A stretch of 64,000 bases of DNA from Halorarum salinum (GTDB lineage Archaea > Halobacteriota > Halobacteria > Halobacteriales > Haloferacaceae), in contig NZ_CP058579.1 of NCBI RefSeq assembly GCF_013402875.1, forward strand, positions 1,302,001 to 1,366,000. The letters are read 5' to 3'. Positions within the stretch are counted from its first letter, which is position 1; each line of letters opens with the position of its first letter. The position numbers and the translations under genes were made by a program. The notes under the pieces were generated by a model. It was not told the origin of the DNA, made no database searches, and was given only the letters and a program-made list of their open reading frames with translations. This document shows positions 32,450 to 40,452 of the stretch, one piece after another.

Positions 32450-33514
32450 ATGGCGGACGCCTACGTCGCGCTGGAGGACGGCCGCGTGTTCGAAGCACGG
32501 AGCCGTTCGCCCGGCCGCACACGTGGTGAACTGGTGTTCACGACCGCGTACACGGGGTACGAGGAGTCGCTGACGGACCCCTCCTACGAGGAGCAGGTCC
32601 TCACGTTCTCCTACCCCCTCATCGGCAACTACGGCGTCCGAGACGAGCGGTTCGAGTCGGACCGCGTCCACCCGCGCGCCGCCGTCGCGCGCGAGTTCAC
32701 GGACGACGTGGCCGAGTGGCTCGCCGGGGAGGACGTGCCCGCGGTGGACCACCTCGACACGCGCGAACTCGTCACCTCCGTCCGCGAGGAGGGGGCGATG
32801 AAGTGCGGCATCGCCGCGGGCCAGGACGCGACCCCCGAGGCCGCCCGCGAGGAACTGGCCGAGTGCAAGGGGATGAGCGAGCACACGGATATCGGCGCGC
32901 AGGTGTCGACGCCCGAACCCTACACGGTCACGGGCGGGGGGGAGTACGACGTCGCGCTGGTGGACTGTGGCGCGAAGGGCTCGATCGCCTCCTCGCTCGC
33001 GGAGCGCGGCGCCGACGTCCACGTCCTGCCGTACGACGCGGACCCGGCGACCGTGGCCGACCTCGACCCTGACGTGCTGTTCGTCTCGAACGGGCCGGGC
33101 GACCCGGCGAACTTCGGCGAGACGCAGTCGCTCGTCGAGGAGTTCGTTGGCGAACTCCCGCTGGCGGGCATCTGTCTCGGCCAGCAAATCGTCGCCCGCG
33201 CGTTCGGCGGCGAGACGGAGAAGATGGCGTTCGGCCACCGCGGCGTGAACCAGCCGGTTCGCGACCTGGAGTCCGGAACGGTCGTGATGACGACCCAGAA
33301 CCACGGCTACTCGGTCGCCGACCCCGGCAGGCTCGACGTGACCCAGGTGAACGTGAACGACGACACCGCCGAGGGGCTCGCGAGCGAGGAGTACGACGTC
33401 GTGACGCGGCAGTACCACCCCGAGGCGAACCCCGGCCCGCACGACTCGCTCGGCTTCTTCGACGAGGTGCTCGACCTCACGGGGCGATCGCGCACGCCCG
33501 TCGCCGCGGATTAA
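32450..33514 (+). CDS. carA: carbamoyl-phosphate synthase, small (glutaminase) subunit
   Basis: The 354-residue protein has the N-terminal CarA domain (ALEDGRVFEARS, GYEESLTDPSYEEQVLTFSYPLIGNYGV) and the class I glutaminase domain with catalytic Cys in LAGICLGQQIVARAFGG and His/Glu in QYHPEANPGPHD. It releases ammonia from glutamine for CarB, feeding pyrimidine and arginine synthesis; carB is not in the window. The promoter suggests a leaderless message. A family II structured element starts directly after the stop codon. Confidence 0.95.
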   Translation: MADAYVALEDGRVFEARSRSPGRTRGELVFTTAYTGYEESLTDPSYEEQVLTFSYPLIGNYGVRDERFESDRVHPRAAVAREFTDDVAEWLAGEDVPAVDHLDTRELVTSVREEGAMKCGIAAGQDATPEAAREELAECKGMSEHTDIGAQVSTPEPYTVTGGGEYDVALVDCGAKGSIASSLAERGADVHVLPYDADPATVADLDPDVLFVSNGPGDPANFGETQSLVEEFVGELPLAGICLGQQIVARAFGGETEKMAFGHRGVNQPVRDLESGTVVMTTQNHGYSVADPGRLDVTQVNVNDDTAEGLASEEYDVVTRQYHPEANPGPHDSLGFFDEVLDLTGRSRTPVAAD

Positions 33515-33663
33515 CGAACCTCTTTTACGGGGGTCCTCCTCGTTCGCGCGCCTTCGGCGCGCTCGCTCGTCGAACCCCCGCAAAACCCGTTCATGCCAAA
33601 AAGGCCGCTCGCTCGGTCGGCGCGGCTTCGCCGCGCCTCCCTCCCTCGCAGTACTGCTGCTGG
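33515..33663 (-). repeat. family II structured element, copy A
   Basis: Two hairpins joined by a conserved 39-nt linker (33580-33618). Hairpin 1: outer GGGGG/CCCCC (33529-33533, 33575-33579) and inner GCGCGCC-TTC-GGCGCGC (33546-33562). Hairpin 2: GGCGCGGC-TTC-GCCGCGCC (33619-33637). The linker is 38/39 identical to copy B, which is inverted relative to this one. It starts at the base after the carA stop codon. Confidence 0.85.
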
Positions 33664-33721
33664 TACGACCGCACCGTGGATGTGATGTTGAAATTACAAA
33701 AACGCCCTTCCGGGAACGTTC

Positions 33722-35542
33722 ATGGGTGGTGGTAGCGTATCTCGCTCCATGGCAGACGCCTTCCACGAAGCGGTCCCGCTGGCGAAACTGGAGGAGGAGG
33801 GTCGAGCGCTGATGCAGGCCGACGGCACGCCCATCGCGCTGTTCCACCACGAGGGCGAGGTCCGCGCGGTGAACAACCGGTGTCCCCACATGGGCTTCCC
33901 GCTCACCGAGGGGAGCGTCGACGAGGGGGTGCTGACGTGCCACTGGCACCACGCGCGCTTCGAACTCTCCTGCGGGGACACGTTCGACCCGTGGGCCGAC
34001 GACGTGGACACGTACACGACCGAGATCCGGGACGGCGTGGTGTACGTCGATCCGCAGCCGAAGCGGTCGGAGCCGCCGGGGGTCCACTGGCGCGGCCGCC
34101 TGGAGGACGGACTGGAGCAGAACCTGAGCCTCGTGCTCGCGAAGTCGGCCGTCGCGCTGCAGGACGCCGGCGTCGACGCGGCCGAGACCGTCGAGACGGG
34201 CGTGCTGTTCGGGACGCGCTACCGCGAGGGCGGATGGTCCTCGGGGCTCACCATCCTCGTCGCGCTCGCGAACCGGCTGCCGGACCTCGAGGAGGAGGAC
34301 CGCAAGCGCGCGCTGTTCCAGGGGCTCACGGAGGTGGCGAGCGACTGCGCGGACCAGCCGCCGAAGTTCGACCAGGAGGAGTTCGAGGCGCGCGAGGTCC
34401 CCTTCTCGCGGCTGAAGTCCTGGTTCCGCGAGAACGTCGAGGTGCGGGACGCCGACGGCGCCGAGCGCGTCCTCCGCACGGCGGTCGCGGAGGGGTGTGA
34501 CGAGGCGGAGCTCACCGAACTGCTCGTCTCGGCCGCGACGGACCACCGCTACCTCGACACGGGCCACGCGTTCGACTTCGTGAACAAGGCCACGGAGGCG
34601 CTCGACCTGATCGGCTGGGACCACGAGCACGCCGACGACGTGCTCGCCTCGCTGGTCCGGGGGCTCGCGACCGCCGACCGCGCCGAGGAGCGCTCCTCGT
34701 GGCGACAGCCGGTCGACCTCGCGGCGATGTGCGAGGACTCGTTCGACCGCCTCGACGACCTCGTCGCCGCGGGAGAGGGGGAGACGTGGGAGCGACCCGA
34801 CGACTTCACCGACCGCCTCCACTCGGCGGACCCGGAGGTCGCCTTCGACGCGCTGGAGTCGGCCATCCGGGGGGGCGCCACCGTCGAGGAACTCGCGGCC
34901 GCCGTGACCCACGCCGCGGGCAAGCGCGTCGCGCTGTTCTCGACGGGCAACGAGTTCTCGGACTGGAACACGGTCCACCACACGTTCACCTACGCGAACG
35001 CGGTCCACCGCGCCGCGGAGCGAACCGACGCGACCGAACTGTACCGCGGGGTGTTCGACGCCGCGGTGAACGTCTACCTCGACCGGTTCCTCAACACGCC
35101 GCCCGCGCCGGAGCCGTCGGTCGAGCCCGACGCCGACCCGGCGGAGGCGCTCGAACAGCTCCTCCTCCGCTTCGAGCAGCAGGGCGAGGTGAACGCCGCG
35201 GCCGCCCACGCGGCCCACTTCCTCGACGGCGGCGGCGACCCGGCCGAACTGAAGGCCGAACTCGGCCACGCGCTCCTCCGCGAGGACGCGGGGTTCCACA
35301 CGTTCCAGGCGTACGAGGCGGCGTGCCGGCAGTTCGACCGCCGGTACGACGGGAGCGGGGAGATCCCGCCCGAGGCGCGGGACATGCTCGTCGCCGCGGC
35401 CCGGTACATGGCCGCCCACTTCCCGACGCGGCGCGAGCGCGAGCAGACGTTCAGCATCGCCGCCCGCCTGCTGCGGGGCGAGAAGCTGCACGGCGAGGAG
35501 TCGGAGGCGGACCCGGACGTGGAGGCGACCGCGGACGATTAG
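33722..35542 (+). CDS. Rieske [2Fe-2S] protein with large helical C-terminal region
   Basis: The 606-residue protein has a Rieske domain at about 12-112 with ligands Cys54 and His56 (CPHMG) and Cys73 and His76 (CHWHH). The remaining 490 residues are helical and rich in His, with DDxHRYLDTGHAFDFVNKATEAL and STGNEFSDWNTVHHTFTYANAVHRAAE; no standard oxygenase iron site is obvious. There is no signal peptide, so it is cytoplasmic. TATA-like AAATTACAAAA about 26 bases before 33722 favours that ATG; 33749 is the alternative. It could be a soluble oxidoreductase of unknown substrate. Confidence 0.75.
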   Translation: MGGGSVSRSMADAFHEAVPLAKLEEEGRALMQADGTPIALFHHEGEVRAVNNRCPHMGFPLTEGSVDEGVLTCHWHHARFELSCGDTFDPWADDVDTYTTEIRDGVVYVDPQPKRSEPPGVHWRGRLEDGLEQNLSLVLAKSAVALQDAGVDAAETVETGVLFGTRYREGGWSSGLTILVALANRLPDLEEEDRKRALFQGLTEVASDCADQPPKFDQEEFEAREVPFSRLKSWFRENVEVRDADGAERVLRTAVAEGCDEAELTELLVSAATDHRYLDTGHAFDFVNKATEALDLIGWDHEHADDVLASLVRGLATADRAEERSSWRQPVDLAAMCEDSFDRLDDLVAAGEGETWERPDDFTDRLHSADPEVAFDALESAIRGGATVEELAAAVTHAAGKRVALFSTGNEFSDWNTVHHTFTYANAVHRAAERTDATELYRGVFDAAVNVYLDRFLNTPPAPEPSVEPDADPAEALEQLLLRFEQQGEVNAAAAHAAHFLDGGGDPAELKAELGHALLREDAGFHTFQAYEAACRQFDRRYDGSGEIPPEARDMLVAAARYMAAHFPTRREREQTFSIAARLLRGEKLHGEESEADPDVEATADD

Positions 35543-35689
35543 TGCGGGTACGGCCAGGGAGCTCCGTTGCAGGTTCCGGTTCGGGCTCGCAGCCGGGGAA
35601 CACGACCTCGAACGCCCCGGCAGCGAGTTCACGAACGACCCACGATCGCGGTACACCTTTTTGGCCACCCGCGCCCACCCCCCACGTAG

Positions 35690-36346
35690 ATGCAACTCAC
35701 GCTGAAGTTCTTCGCCACCTTCCGGGAGGCGGTCGGCTCGAAGCTGACCGAGCGGGAGGTGCCCGAGGGGGCCACGGTGGGCGACGTGCTGGCCGACCTG
35801 GAGGCCGAGTACGAGGGGCTCGAGGGCCAGCTCCTCGAGGACGGCGAGCTCCGCCCACAGATCAACGTCCTGCTCGACGGGCGCGAGGTGCTCCACATGG
35901 AGGGGCCGGACACGGAGCTCTCCGAGGGCGACACGCTCGCCGTGTTCCCGCCGGTCGCGGGCGGCGCGGCCGACGCCGCCGGTCCGGGGGACGAGGAGGG
36001 AACCGGAGGGGACGCGGACGCCGCCGACGGGGGGACCGCGACCGGCGAGGGCGTTCCCGCCGGAGGGGAGTCCGGGGACGCGGAATGGGTCGAGGCCTAC
36101 CGGGGCATCTCCCGCCGGCTCGCCGTCCGTTACCTGCGGAACCTCGGCGGCGAGACCGACCGCCCCGACGAGGAGGCGACCGAGGTCGTCGGCGACGGCT
36201 GGCGGGCGACCCTCGAGACGGAGACGGTGAGCCCGGCCGGGAGCATCACGCTCACCGAGGTGACCGTCCGGTTCACGGGCGAGTCCGCGACGCTCGAGGA
36301 ACTGGTCCCCGCCTTCGGCCGGAAGGCGATGCGCGCCGGGGGGTGA
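35690..36346 (+). CDS. MoaD/SAMP-like ubiquitin-fold protein fused to a second domain
   Basis: Residues 1-92 form a beta-grasp MoaD/SAMP1-like domain (MQLTLKFFATFREAVGS...LAVFPPVAGG), ending in the VAGG at which free SAMP1/MoaD stop and are adenylated. Here it continues through an acidic Gly/Ala linker (93-124) into a C-terminal domain (125-218: EAYRGISRRLAVRYLRNLGG...EELVPAFGRKAMRAGG) resembling MoaD-associated C-terminal domains (DUF1952-type, from memory), which itself ends in Gly-Gly. It may carry sulfur for molybdopterin or tag proteins. The downstream gene starts two bases after its stop. Confidence 0.8.
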   Translation: MQLTLKFFATFREAVGSKLTEREVPEGATVGDVLADLEAEYEGLEGQLLEDGELRPQINVLLDGREVLHMEGPDTELSEGDTLAVFPPVAGGAADAAGPGDEEGTGGDADAADGGTATGEGVPAGGESGDAEWVEAYRGISRRLAVRYLRNLGGETDRPDEEATEVVGDGWRATLETETVSPAGSITLTEVTVRFTGESATLEELVPAFGRKAMRAGG

Positions 36347-36347
36347 G

Positions 36348-36809
36348 ATGACCGACCCCGATCCGGACTCGGACGCGGACCCGGATTCGCACGCGGGCGC
36401 CGACTCGGACGCCGGTCCCACGGAGCAGCCGGGCGACCCACGGGAGGCCGACCATCCCATCGACGGCAACGCGCTGCTGCTCGCGACCGCCAAGGCGAGC
36501 GTGGGGCCCGAGCGGCTCCCGGCGCTCCTGGGGACGGCAGCCGCCGAACTCGCGGCGCGACGCGACGACTACGAGCGGCGGTTCGAGGCCGTCCACGAGC
36601 GCGACGGGACGCTGGTGGTGCTCGTCCCCGAGGGCCACTGGGCCGACCTGGGCGGGGACCTCGGGCTGGGCGAGCGGGAGGCCGACGCGCTCAGGCGGGC
36701 CCACGAGGAGCACCTGCGCCGGCTCGGCTCCCAGCTCGACCGGCGCGAGGAGTTCGAGCACGCGCTCGAGCTTCGCGAGGCGGTCGTCGTCGGCCCGTCC
36801 CCGGCGTAG
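36348..36809 (+). CDS. conserved haloarchaeal protein of unknown function
   Basis: The 153-residue protein begins with about 35 acidic residues (DPDPDSDADPDSHAGAD...), then a folded part: DGNALLLATAKASVGPERLPALLGTAAAELAARRDDYERRFEAVHERDGTLVVLVPEGHW, followed by a charged helix (LRRAHEEHLRRLGSQLDRREEFEHALE). It is tightly linked to the MoaD-fusion gene (one base between stop and ATG), so it may be translated with it and act in the same process. Confidence 0.7.
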   Translation: MTDPDPDSDADPDSHAGADSDAGPTEQPGDPREADHPIDGNALLLATAKASVGPERLPALLGTAAAELAARRDDYERRFEAVHERDGTLVVLVPEGHWADLGGDLGLGEREADALRRAHEEHLRRLGSQLDRREEFEHALELREAVVVGPSPA

Positions 36810-36889
36810 CCCGACTCCCCTCACGCCGGACGCCCGGACTCCTCTACCGGAACCGACGGCGGTTTCACCCGCCGGCACCGCCCGCAGGT

Positions 36890-37594
36890 ATGGACACGCG
36901 ACTCGCCGAGCTCCGCGCGGGCGTCCGTGACACCCTCCCGCTGCTGCTCGGCATCGTCCCCTTCGCGCTCGTCGCCGGGGTCGCCGGCGTCGAGGCCGGC
37001 CTCACGCCGCTCCAGACGGTCGGCATGTCGATGGTCGTCTTCGCCGGCGCCTCCCAGCTCGCGGCCATCGACCTGCTCGGCCGGGACGCCGCGCTCGGCG
37101 TGGTGGTGCTCACGGCGGTCGTCATCAACCTCCGGATGATGATGTACTCGGCCTCCATCGCGCCCCACTTCCGCGCGCTCTCGGCACGGGTCCGGGCGGG
37201 CTGTGCGTACCTGCTCACCGACCAGGCGTACGCGCTGGCGGTCGCGCGCTACACCCGGGAGGACGAGGTGACGCGCCCGCCGTACTACTACCTCGGCGTG
37301 GGGGCGACGCTCTGGCTCGTGTGGCAGGCGGGCACCGTCGTCGGCGTCGCCTTCGGCGCCGGCGTCCCCGACGCCTGGCGGCTGGACTTCGCCGTCCCGC
37401 TCGTGTTCCTCGCGCTGCTGGTGCCGGTCCTCTCGGACCGGCCGAGCGTCGCGGCGGGGCTCGTCGCGGCCGCCGTCGCGGTGGTCGCCGTCGGCCTGCC
37501 GTTCAACGCCGGGCTGATCGCGGGCGCGCTGGCGGGCGTCGCGTCGGGCATCGCGGCCGAACGGCTCGGGCTCGCGTCCGGGGGGTCGGCGTGA
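36890..37594 (+). CDS. azlC: AzlC-family branched-chain amino acid exporter subunit
   Basis: The 234-residue membrane protein begins with a short cytoplasmic start and the AzlC signature (DTLPLLLGIVPFALVAGVAGVEAGLTPLQTVGMSMVVFAGASQLAAIDLLG), then VVINLRMMMYSASIAPHF and several transmembrane helices. AzlC with the small partner AzlD exports branched-chain amino acids. The last codon overlaps azlD by four bases. Confidence 0.92.
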   Translation: MDTRLAELRAGVRDTLPLLLGIVPFALVAGVAGVEAGLTPLQTVGMSMVVFAGASQLAAIDLLGRDAALGVVVLTAVVINLRMMMYSASIAPHFRALSARVRAGCAYLLTDQAYALAVARYTREDEVTRPPYYYLGVGATLWLVWQAGTVVGVAFGAGVPDAWRLDFAVPLVFLALLVPVLSDRPSVAAGLVAAAVAVVAVGLPFNAGLIAGALAGVASGIAAERLGLASGGSA

Positions 37595-37926
37595 CGACGA
37601 CCTACGGCCCGGCGGCGATCTGGGGCGCGATCCTCGCCGCTGGGCTGGCGACGTACGCCATCCGGCTCTCCTTCATCCACCTGTTCGGCCGCGTCGAGGG
37701 CGTGCCGCCCGCGCTCGAGCGCCTGCTCGCGTACGTGCCGCCCGCGGTGCTCGCGGCGCTCGTCGCGCCCGACTTCGTGCCCGCGTCGGCGACGGTCGCC
37801 GCGCTCGCGGACCCGACGCTCGTCGGCGGCGCGGCCGCGGTCGCGGCGGCGTGGTACACCGAGGACGTGCTGTGGACGGTCGGCGCGGGGATGGCGGGCC
37901 TGCACCTCGCGCGGTTCCTGCTCTAG
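37591..37926 (+). CDS. azlD: AzlD-family transporter subunit
   Basis: The 111-residue protein starts at a GTG overlapping the azlC stop (GTGA) and shows the AzlD pattern: TYAIRLSFIHLFGRVEGVPPALERLLAYVPPAVLAALVAPDF and three to four membrane helices, ending GMAGLHLARFLL. It forms the exporter with AzlC. Confidence 0.9.
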   Translation: MTTTYGPAAIWGAILAAGLATYAIRLSFIHLFGRVEGVPPALERLLAYVPPAVLAALVAPDFVPASATVAALADPTLVGGAAAVAAAWYTEDVLWTVGAGMAGLHLARFLL

Positions 37927-38261
37927 GCGCCGCCCGGGTCTGGGTCCGGGTCGTCGTCCCCGAACTCGTCCAGGTGTGCGTTCCCCGTCGATCCGGTGCC
38001 GGGGGCCGCGACGCGGTCGTCTCGTTCGGCGGCACGCGCGCGACGCTCCTGCGCGTCGGCGATGCGCTCGTGTGCCAGCACGAACCGGTGGAGGAGGTAC
38101 AGGACGAACGCGGTGACGGCGACGGAGACGAGGGACCACACGCCCGCCAGTAGCCCGCCGAACCCGGTGAGGCCGACCAGGACGACGATCAGTATCAGGA
38201 CCACGAGCGCGACGAGGGCGGAGTTCGTCGTGAGGGCGTCGGGGAGCGGGGAGTCGCTCAT
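37923..38261 (-). CDS. small membrane protein, two transmembrane helices
   Basis: The 112-residue protein has two hydrophobic segments (NSALVALVVLILIVVLVGLTGFGGL and VWSLVSVAVTAFVLYLLHRFVL) followed by a charged cytoplasmic tail ending in DPDPDPGGA. The ATG at 38261 is chosen; the frame upstream is Arg/Pro-rich and unlikely. It overlaps azlD by four bases at its 3' end, converging. Function is unknown. Confidence 0.65.
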   Translation of the reverse strand: MSDSPLPDALTTNSALVALVVLILIVVLVGLTGFGGLLAGVWSLVSVAVTAFVLYLLHRFVLAHERIADAQERRARAAERDDRVAAPGTGSTGNAHLDEFGDDDPDPDPGGA

Positions 38262-38344
38262 GGGACACGCAGCGAAGCGGAGCGTGATAAGGGTGGGTGA
38301 ATCACGTCTCGGTCTCGCGGGCGAGTCCACGACAGGCGAACCAA

Positions 38345-38523
38345 CCGCTAGTCACCAGCAGCAGTACCGCGAGGGAGGGAGGCGGGGCGAAGCCCCGCCG
38401 ACCGAGCGAGCGGCCCTTTTGGCATGAACGGGTTTTGCGGGGGGTCTGGCCGCAGCGCGTCGGCTTCGCCGACGCGCGAGGACAGACCCCCCGCAAAAGA
38501 GGTTCGTGGGAAGAGGTTCGTGC
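38345..38523 (+). repeat. family II structured element, copy B
   Basis: Hairpin 2: GGCGGGGC-GAA-GCCCCGCC (38381-38399), changed from copy A at paired positions so that pairing is kept. Linker 38400-38438, 38/39 identical to copy A. Hairpin 1: outer GGGGGGTCTG/CAGACCCCCC (38439-38448, 38483-38492), inner GCGCGTCGGC-TTC-GCCGACGCGC (38455-38477). It lies directly downstream of the aor stop codon, oriented as copy A is to carA. Confidence 0.85.
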
Positions 38524-40452
38524 TTAGTCGTCCGCGGGGGCGGTGCCGCTCCCGCCCGAACTCACGCCCGTGCCGGGGCCGATGTCGATGCCGAGGTCGT
38601 CCAGCTTCTCGTCGGGGACGACGCCGTCGACCCAGCCGCGGTGGTCGTAGTACTCCCGCTTCATCTCGGGCAGTTCGCAGTACTCGCCCTCGCTTGCGCC
38701 CTGGCCGCGGATGCCGTCCTCGAGGAACCGGTCGGGGAGCGTGTCGTCCGCGCCGTCGAAGCCGGCGAGGTTGTTGTAGTAGCGCTCCAGGTTGTAGATG
38801 CGCTCCCCGGCCTCGAACAGCTCGTCCTCGGTCAGGTCGAGCCCCGTCATGCCGTTGTACTGGAGCACGTACTCCTCGATGCCCTCCGCGAACGCGTTGA
38901 ACTTGCAGATGTCGAAGCTGTCCGACACCGCGTGGAGGTCCTGGAACGTCGCCGTCAGCTCGCCCTTCCCCTCCCACTCGTAGGGGTCGACCTTCTGCGG
39001 GATGCCGAGGATCTCGGCGGCCGGGGTGTACGCCCGCAGGTGGCAGGCGCCCCGGTTGGAGGTGGCGTACGCGATGCCCATTCCCTTCATGCAGCGCGGG
39101 TCGTACGCCGGGATGGACTGGCCCTTCACCGCCAGCGAGTTGTCGGCGGCGCCGAACCCGTCGATGAGGCCGTTGGCGCCCTCTGCGAGCGCGTCCGCGA
39201 GGTCGCCCTCGCGGTTCGCGACGTCCTCGAGGAGGTCGATCATCGTCTCGGAGTCGCCCCACTCGAGCCCGTCGCCGAGGCCGTCGAACTTGCCCTCCTC
39301 GGTCATCTCCATCGCCATCGCCATCATGTTGCCCGCCTCGATGGTGTCGAGGCCCATGTCGTTACAGCGGTCGATCATGACGCCGATCTCGTCGCGGTCC
39401 GTGTGGCCCGAGTTCGGGCCGAGCGCGTAGGCGGACTCGTACTCGTAGGACTCCATCCGGACGTTCATGTCCTCGCCCTTGTGGGTCACGTCCACCTCGA
39501 CCTCCTTCTTGCAGGCGACCGGGCAGGAGTGACAGGTCGGCTCGTCGACGAGGATGTTCTCGCGGACGTTCTCGCCGGAGACCTCCTCGGCGTCGATGGT
39601 CGACCCCTCCGCGTCGTTCATCGACGCGGTCGAGGTGTACTTCCCGTTCTTCGTCGGGAGCCCGTCCATCTCCTCGGTGATGTTCATCAGGACGTTCGTC
39701 CCGTACAGCGAGAGGCCGCCCTCGTTGGGGGCGGTGACGTCGGACTCGCGGATGACCTCCATCGCCTGCTGGTACCCCTCCTGGAACGTCTCGGGGTCCG
39801 CGGGTTTGGGCATCTTCGTGCCCGACTTCACGACGACCGCCTTCAGGTTCTTGTTGCCCATCACGCAGCCGGTGCCGCCCCGGCCCGAGGCGCGGTCGTC
39901 CTCGTTCACGATGCAGGCGTACTTCACCTCGTTCTCCCCGCCGGGCCCGATGGCCATCACGGAGAGGTTCTTGCCGACCGAGCCGTCCACTTCCTCGCCG
40001 AGGGCCTCGATGGCGTCGTGGACGCCCGAGCCCCAGAGGTGGGAGGCGTCACGGAGTTCGAGTTCGCCGTCCTCGACGACGGCGTACACCGGGTCCTCGC
40101 TTTGCCCCTCGAACACGAGGCCGTCGAAGCCCGCCCACTTCAGGCGCGCGCCGGACCAGCCGCCGTGGTGGCTGTCGGTGACGGTGTTCGTGAGCGGGGA
40201 CTTCGTCGTCACCGCGATGCGGCCGCTCATCACGGTCTGGGTGCCCGTGAGCGGCCCGTTCATGAAGCACAGCCGGTTCTCGGGTCCGAGCGGGTCGACG
40301 TCCGGCCCCGCCTCGAACACGTACTTCACCCCGAGGCCGCGCGCGCCGATGTACTTGCGCGCGTCCTCGTCGTCGATGCCACGGTAGGTCACGTCGCCGG
40401 AGGAGAGGTCGACGTGGCCCACGTTGTCCCTGAAGCCGCCGAGGTCGGTCAT
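38524..40452 (-). CDS. aor: aldehyde ferredoxin oxidoreductase (tungsten enzyme)
   Basis: The 642-residue protein oxidises aldehydes to acids with ferredoxin as acceptor, using a tungstopterin and one [4Fe-4S] cluster. The cluster ligands are C307-x2-C310-x3-C314 (CHSCPVAC) and Cys516 (DICKF). The N-terminal domain has GARGLGVKYVFE, SGRIAVTTKSPLT and HHGGWSGARLKWAG for the pterin. The last 20 residues are a flexible acidic end. Length is usual. The upstream region has repeated AACGTAC motifs. Confidence 0.93.
   Translation of the reverse strand: MTDLGGFRDNVGHVDLSSGDVTYRGIDDEDARKYIGARGLGVKYVFEAGPDVDPLGPENRLCFMNGPLTGTQTVMSGRIAVTTKSPLTNTVTDSHHGGWSGARLKWAGFDGLVFEGQSEDPVYAVVEDGELELRDASHLWGSGVHDAIEALGEEVDGSVGKNLSVMAIGPGGENEVKYACIVNEDDRASGRGGTGCVMGNKNLKAVVVKSGTKMPKPADPETFQEGYQQAMEVIRESDVTAPNEGGLSLYGTNVLMNITEEMDGLPTKNGKYTSTASMNDAEGSTIDAEEVSGENVRENILVDEPTCHSCPVACKKEVEVDVTHKGEDMNVRMESYEYESAYALGPNSGHTDRDEIGVMIDRCNDMGLDTIEAGNMMAMAMEMTEEGKFDGLGDGLEWGDSETMIDLLEDVANREGDLADALAEGANGLIDGFGAADNSLAVKGQSIPAYDPRCMKGMGIAYATSNRGACHLRAYTPAAEILGIPQKVDPYEWEGKGELTATFQDLHAVSDSFDICKFNAFAEGIEEYVLQYNGMTGLDLTEDELFEAGERIYNLERYYNNLAGFDGADDTLPDRFLEDGIRGQGASEGEYCELPEMKREYYDHRGWVDGVVPDEKLDDLGIDIGPGTGVSSGGSGTAPADD

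Follow-up and report, generated by a model that had tools for sequence, protein, structure and literature searches.

Haloarchaeal genomes carry a dispersed element of paired hairpins that stands directly behind the stop codons of mostly core genes, and our best explanation, to which we assign a probability of about 0.47, is that it acts as a bidirectional T-tract terminator whose copies have been spread and overwritten by copying. Archaeal gene ending is still poorly understood, and a defined, recurrent gene-end module with known boxes, present in many haloarchaeal genera, offers a direct handle on it. Such a module predicts that 3' ends fall at set positions, that the opposite strand has a terminator of its own and that some process swaps hairpins between sites; furthermore, a covariance model of it is ready for use, and haloarchaeal genetics gains a candidate terminator part.

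Anatomy, pairing and strand bias of the element

Two copies lie in the window, i.e., the whole 64,000-nt stretch of the Halorarum salinum genome that was analysed, with the following features:

32450..33514, +: carA (carbamoyl-phosphate synthase small chain), host of copy 1; Pfam CPSase_sm_chain 8e-36, GATase 1.5e-40
33512-33514, +: carA stop codon, TAA
33516-33665, +: copy 1, whole element, starting one base past the carA stop
33516..33526, +: copy 1 5' box GAACCTCTTTT (stem foot and T-tract), 1 nt past the stop
33516..33592, +: copy 1 hairpin 1 (GAAC...GTTC; T-tract pairs with A-tract; GC interior variable)
33581..33602, +: copy 1 linker CAAAACCCGTTCATGCCAAAAA (its A-tracts are T-tracts on the - strand)
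33604..33651, +: copy 1 hairpin 2
33650..33665, +: copy 1 conserved tail GTACTGCTGCTGGT
38524..40452, -: aor (aldehyde ferredoxin oxidoreductase), host of copy 2; Pfam AFOR_C 4.7e-118, AFOR_N 1.3e-72
38526-38524, -: aor stop codon, TAA
38506..38519, -: GAACCTCTTCCCAC, a repeat of part of the 5' box, starting 4 nt past the aor stop and lying ahead of copy 2
38505-38353, -: copy 2, whole element, starting 18 nt past the aor stop
38495..38505, -: copy 2 5' box GAACCTCTTTT
38426..38505, -: copy 2 hairpin 1
38417..38437, -: copy 2 linker CAAAACCCGTTCATGCCAAAA
38366..38415, -: copy 2 hairpin 2
38353..38366, -: copy 2 conserved tail GTACTGCTGCTGGTG

The element runs from the stop codon through GAACCTCTTTT, hairpin 1, AAAACCCGTTCATGCCAAAA and hairpin 2 to a conserved tail. 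Read on the host strand, the stop is followed by the GAAC foot, CTC, TTTT, the GC-rich hairpin 1 with its variable interior, AAAA, CCC and the GTTC foot, and then by ATGCC, AAAA, hairpin 2 and the tail GCGGTACnnCTGCTGGTG. The lengths of the T and A tracts agree across genera (4/4, 5/5, 6/6), and the second, unpaired A-tract is likewise conserved.

An earlier note on this stretch had reported two copies with a near-identical linker, which proved real: the 21 nt of CAAAACCCGTTCATGCCAAAA are identical in both (never matched in 100 shuffled windows), and a single base differs across ~43 nt of the linker region. The change of hairpin 2 from GGCGCGGC/GCCGCGCC to GGCGGGGC/GCCCCGCC between the copies, with pairing preserved, was also recovered. 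The same note had hairpin 1 pairing fully, which does not hold for copy 1 given its conserved internal mismatches, and had both copies at the base after a stop, which is accurate for copy 1; the full box of copy 2 begins 18 nt past the aor stop, behind the partial box. RNA folding was far more stable than in shuffled sequences for both copies (z = -4.45 for copy 1 and -7.48 for copy 2). Partial 5' boxes (GAACCTCTTCCCAC, GAACCTCTCGCAC and similar) stand just ahead of full copies at window positions 38506-38519 and at loci L008, L010, L017, L028 and L032, and look like leftovers of earlier elements.

The number of hairpins per element ranges from two to six, in chains of 2, 4 or 6. In some copies (L014, L018, L021, L026, L103 and L106), the linker holds, at one fixed insertion point after ATGC, a cassette of extra hairpins, always either two (52-56 nt) or four (105 nt), with nearly perfect stems of ~10 bp and triloops; the stem sequences differ wholly between copies with pairing preserved. 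Furthermore, the hairpin 1 interior of L010/L011 is the exact or near reverse complement of that of L009/L012, i.e., an inversion within a conserved frame.

Selection on structure, as proposed in the earlier note, is supported by compensatory stem changes together with a very strong stop-codon bias. Variable stem positions, assessed over 69 distinct arm pairs, showed paired fractions of 0.65-0.99, exceeding all 500 shuffles at seven positions; this test is liberal owing to related copies, but double changes are nonetheless spread over several host genes and several genera. Covarying positions include the first two foot pairs, where GAAC/GTTC is exchanged for CGAC/GTCG and, in one case, for CAAC/GTTG. 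The foot and the GC stem thus covary; T/A tract positions are 90-97% paired with no compensatory change, and the CTC/CCC mismatch is conserved.

Regarding the strand on which the structure may act, sense-strand mismatches in hairpins 1 and 2, as well as class-wide, are overwhelmingly pyrimidine-pyrimidine (G.A on the other strand), with 399 of these versus 58 purine mismatches in hairpin 1 and 204 versus 28 class-wide. Because of this excess, the antisense strand of hairpin 1 folds better than the sense strand in 83/90 copies. The comparison of G-U with A-C, which discriminates for RNA, revealed no sense-strand excess of G-U in hairpin 1 (G.T versus A.C, 62 versus 97), class-wide (47 versus 43) or in the cassettes (15 versus 13); these counts favour neither strand consistently, and therefore a structure acting as RNA is unsupported by these data. 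An antisense RNA, considered on the basis of the G-U counts, was dropped, as the class-wide counts are equal and the bias sits in the pyrimidine mismatches.

Distribution, gene-end position and turnover

A blastn search of the whole genome (4.26 Mb, 2 contigs) returned 47 matches, 32 of them at E<=1.3e-5 and the latter confined to the larger contig, so the family is not a chance finding, and a covariance model returned 50 matches, both counts including split copies and reverse-strand palindrome matches. Copies in related genomes, on which the earlier note let its reading depend, were found in number, with 26 and 29 covariance-model matches in two congeners. A strict box pattern occurred in 17/391 class genomes from 4 genera (0 matches for the reversed control pattern), and the exact 19-nt linker in named genomes including Halorarius, Halolamina, Halobaculum, Natronolimnohabitans and Candidatus Halobonum, 3/17 stretches in that scan being evident chance matches in bacteria. 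At the 3' site of menB, six other genera carry an element with different boxes and an unchanged order of parts. Two general forms were derived, namely CCCACCTTTTT...AAAAATCTGGACCAAAAA, present in 50/116 class genomes and in 28/45 sampled haloarchaeal genera, and CGACCTTTTT...AAAAATGTCGATCAAAAA, present in 17/116 class genomes, neither with any reversed-control match. Among the 59 general-form loci class-wide, 19 begin 0-5 nt past a stop, and several others lie 15-37 nt from the stop of a convergent gene with their T-tracts directed against it.

No Rfam family matched the 64-kb window above the gathering threshold, and the plasmid, phage and viral collections gave no copies of the element. The searched open literature, which leaves out most subscription journals, contained no description of the family, and this is not proof of novelty. 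In other genera, tandem arrays of two or three copies occur at ~142-149 bp spacing (G081:C1:2763337-2763677, G137:C10:7427-7776 and G092:C21:14589-14792). Near-identical copies (L082, L083, L086, L087, L089 and L092) occur in Halolamina salifodinae and in Natronolimnohabitans innermongolicus, and a Salinarchaeum MAG shares one of them. Those with readable flanks are not directly behind stop codons, which suggests recent lateral spread.

Position relative to stop codons, a further check named in the earlier note, gave a clear result: with genes called by a codon-usage model trained on the window, 66 of 92 distinct copies begin at -2 to +5 nt from a same-strand stop and 80 lie within 20 nt of one. 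In the -2 and -1 position classes, the last bases of the stop codon are supplied by the element itself. Stop codons are used about equally (TGA 29, TAG 28, TAA 23). The hosts comprise 31 families, mostly of core functions; Pfam confirmed carA, AOR, 2-oxoacid ferredoxin oxidoreductase beta, PhoU, ETF alpha, TruB, an aCPSF1-type beta-CASP nuclease, a proteasomal ATPase and an enoyl-CoA hydratase-type protein read as menB, and other hosts, including CDC48, agmatinase, TFB and DP1, were named by sequence reading only. In this 70% GC genome, TTTT occurs <=30 nt past the stop in 86% of carriers versus 7% of other genes with room, a contrast that holds partly by definition since the element contains TTTT. 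The nearest next gene is never <165 nt from the element. At menB and carA, a close downstream co-directional gene was present at 0/12 scored carriers versus 13/48 non-carriers (p 0.05), a result that is suggestive only, weak and partly forced by the length of the element; the automatic scoring overlooked one carrier (the menB of G006, CGAACCGCTTTT), which adds no counter-example. A specificity for convergent genes was tried and rejected (27 versus 22).

The same gene ends carry the element in three congeners, and this sharing of occupied gene ends extends across genera. Among 32 orthologous site pairs from these congeners, hairpin-1 identity was 0.68, compared to 0.69 for unrelated sites within one genome and 0.66 between species, the last 300 nt of the host genes at orthologous sites being 0.89 identical; in 0/39 cases was a copy closest to its own ortholog. 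As identity at orthologous sites is no higher than at unrelated ones, the occupied site is retained and its sequence is replaced. At truB, AMMECR1 and ilvE, the element is present in Halorarum salinum only, the congener sites being empty and too diverged to place the junction. Partly decayed copies were found at YlbF, geranylgeranyl reductase, a KaiC-like gene and elsewhere, and in some of them the T-tract by the stop persists.

The terminator reading and its alternatives

Of the options first raised for the window copies (a terminator, a mobile repeat or a 3'-UTR RNA), the data point most towards a terminator, with repeat-like overwriting of its copies. They show a T-tract next to the stop, further T-tracts on the opposite strand, a covarying clasp and a location at transcription-unit ends; that transcription terminates there, what the hairpins do and how copies are made is inferred. 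The T-tract 7-11 nt past the stop (CCTCTTTT; CCTTTTT in other genera) would be the termination or 3'-end signal of the host gene, and the linker A-tracts, i.e., T-tracts of the other strand, would act with hairpin 2 to stop transcription coming from downstream. The hairpins may be pausing or insulating structures, or may protect read-through RNA. Repeat-like copying would spread copies and overwrite them among sites, and therefore the site would be kept and the hairpin sequence exchanged.

In favour of the terminator, a T-stretch stands shortly past the end of the transcription unit, and in Haloferax volcanii T-stretches are proven terminators, reaching 95% in a reporter (PMC7237163). Against it, a terminator would require neither a conserved tail nor chains of 2, 4 or 6 perfect hairpins, no bias towards convergent neighbours is seen, and the terminator model does not explain the sense-strand pyrimidine mismatches of both hairpins. 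The sense-strand T-tract also stands before hairpin 1, which is unlike a classical intrinsic terminator and makes the hairpins unnecessary for simple T-tract termination.

Much of the turnover described above is also what would be expected of mobile palindromic DNA of the REP kind. Such an element would be small and non-autonomous, would be moved by an unidentified or lost transposase or by template switching, and would have insertions that survive mainly right behind stops. The many copies per genome, orthologous hairpins no closer than unrelated ones (ortholog nearest in 0/39), empty congener sites (truB, AMMECR1, ilvE) with decayed copies, inverted interiors (L010/L011 versus L009/L012), box remnants beside full copies, tandem arrays and the near-identical copies off stops in Halolamina and Natronolimnohabitans all agree with this reading, which we nevertheless consider rather unlikely: the genome has no Y1 transposase and its sole tnpB match is without boxes, plasmid, phage and viral collections yielded no copies, identical gene ends are occupied across genera, and a DNA-level target would hardly give stop-codon precision. 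A more novel reading is a class-wide, stop-codon-tied genetic element, a modular palindromic cassette copied between unrelated core-gene ends, with recognition coupled to the termination of translation or of transcription; we regard this as unlikely, and if true, it would mean that gene-end position is conserved over genera under continual overwriting of sequence, in a shared, exchangeable gene-end module.

Orientation and position fixed relative to the coding strand, core-gene hosts, covarying stems and foot (GAAC/GTTC, CGAC/GTCG, CAAC/GTTG) and perfect cassette hairpins in quantised numbers would also suit a 3'-UTR RNA structure, in which hairpins 1 and 2, and cassettes where present, shield the sense mRNA from 3' decay or form a processing site; since the foot helix starts at the stop codon, the terminating ribosome would affect its folding. 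This appears distinctly unlikely given that the sense strand lacks a G-U preference in hairpin 1, class-wide and in the cassettes, that hairpin 1 folds better as antisense in 83/90 copies, and that the T-tract lies ahead of the hairpins. Least probable, and in our view quite doubtful, is a DNA-level element (a cruciform, or a protein-binding or recombination/uptake signal) located at gene ends by happenstance, comparable to uptake sequences co-opted as terminators. Strand-symmetric perfect stems free of G-U bias, conserved boxes and exchange of sequence between sites are consistent with it, but it does not explain why the element is so strongly oriented to its host gene and so precisely placed at stop codons, and the hairpin mismatches are strongly strand-biased.

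Comparison with described systems

The putative terminator would, by analogy, work like the dispersed terminator repeats formed by uptake sequences (PMC1852404), and in build it resembles REP/BIME and PATE repeats. In Neisseria and Pasteurellaceae, dispersed uptake sequences in inverted pairs form hairpins at gene ends and double as terminators (PMC1852404); a dispersed conserved sequence with hairpins at gene ends is common to both, whereas here the interior varies freely, the foot, tracts and linker are the conserved parts, and no uptake role is known. Hairpins are reportedly not enriched behind archaeal genes (PMC1852404). In the Haloferax volcanii study, hairpins are described upstream of a subset of 3' ends, and the pyrimidine-led T-stretches past gene ends are shared with our element (PMC7237163). 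Compared with those terminators, the T-tract here precedes the hairpin and pairs with an A-tract, and a sequence-conserved, multi-copy element stands directly at the stop, a family not described in the consulted part of that study.

The PATEs of Haloquadratum walsbyi have two near-terminal palindromes and are linked to the ends of IS605-type transposons, and SMR-A of the same species has terminal inverted repeats and targets PATEs (PMC3119063). These are, like ours, haloarchaeal repeats without a transposase, and the present element likewise has near-terminal palindromes without coding capacity; it differs from them in that its sites are gene ends and no relation to IS605 was found. The only tnpB match of the genome (L318) has no box in its 3.2 kb locus, and PATE membership is thus unsupported. 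Bacterial REP/BIME repeats with RAYT are likewise extragenic palindromes, dispersed as pairs and clusters and built of modular hairpins, and repetitive, often paired palindromes were found here too (47 blastn matches; chains of 2, 4 or 6 hairpins). The boxes, the stop-codon precision and the T/A tracts set the present element apart from them, and a search of the genome for the Y1 (RAYT) transposase PF01797 gave 0 matches, the control search being positive in Haloferax volcanii; with this gene absent, REP/RAYT membership is unsupported.

In Candidatus Halobonum, one copy (L097) lies directly behind a gene for an aCPSF1-type nuclease, which is the archaeal termination factor.
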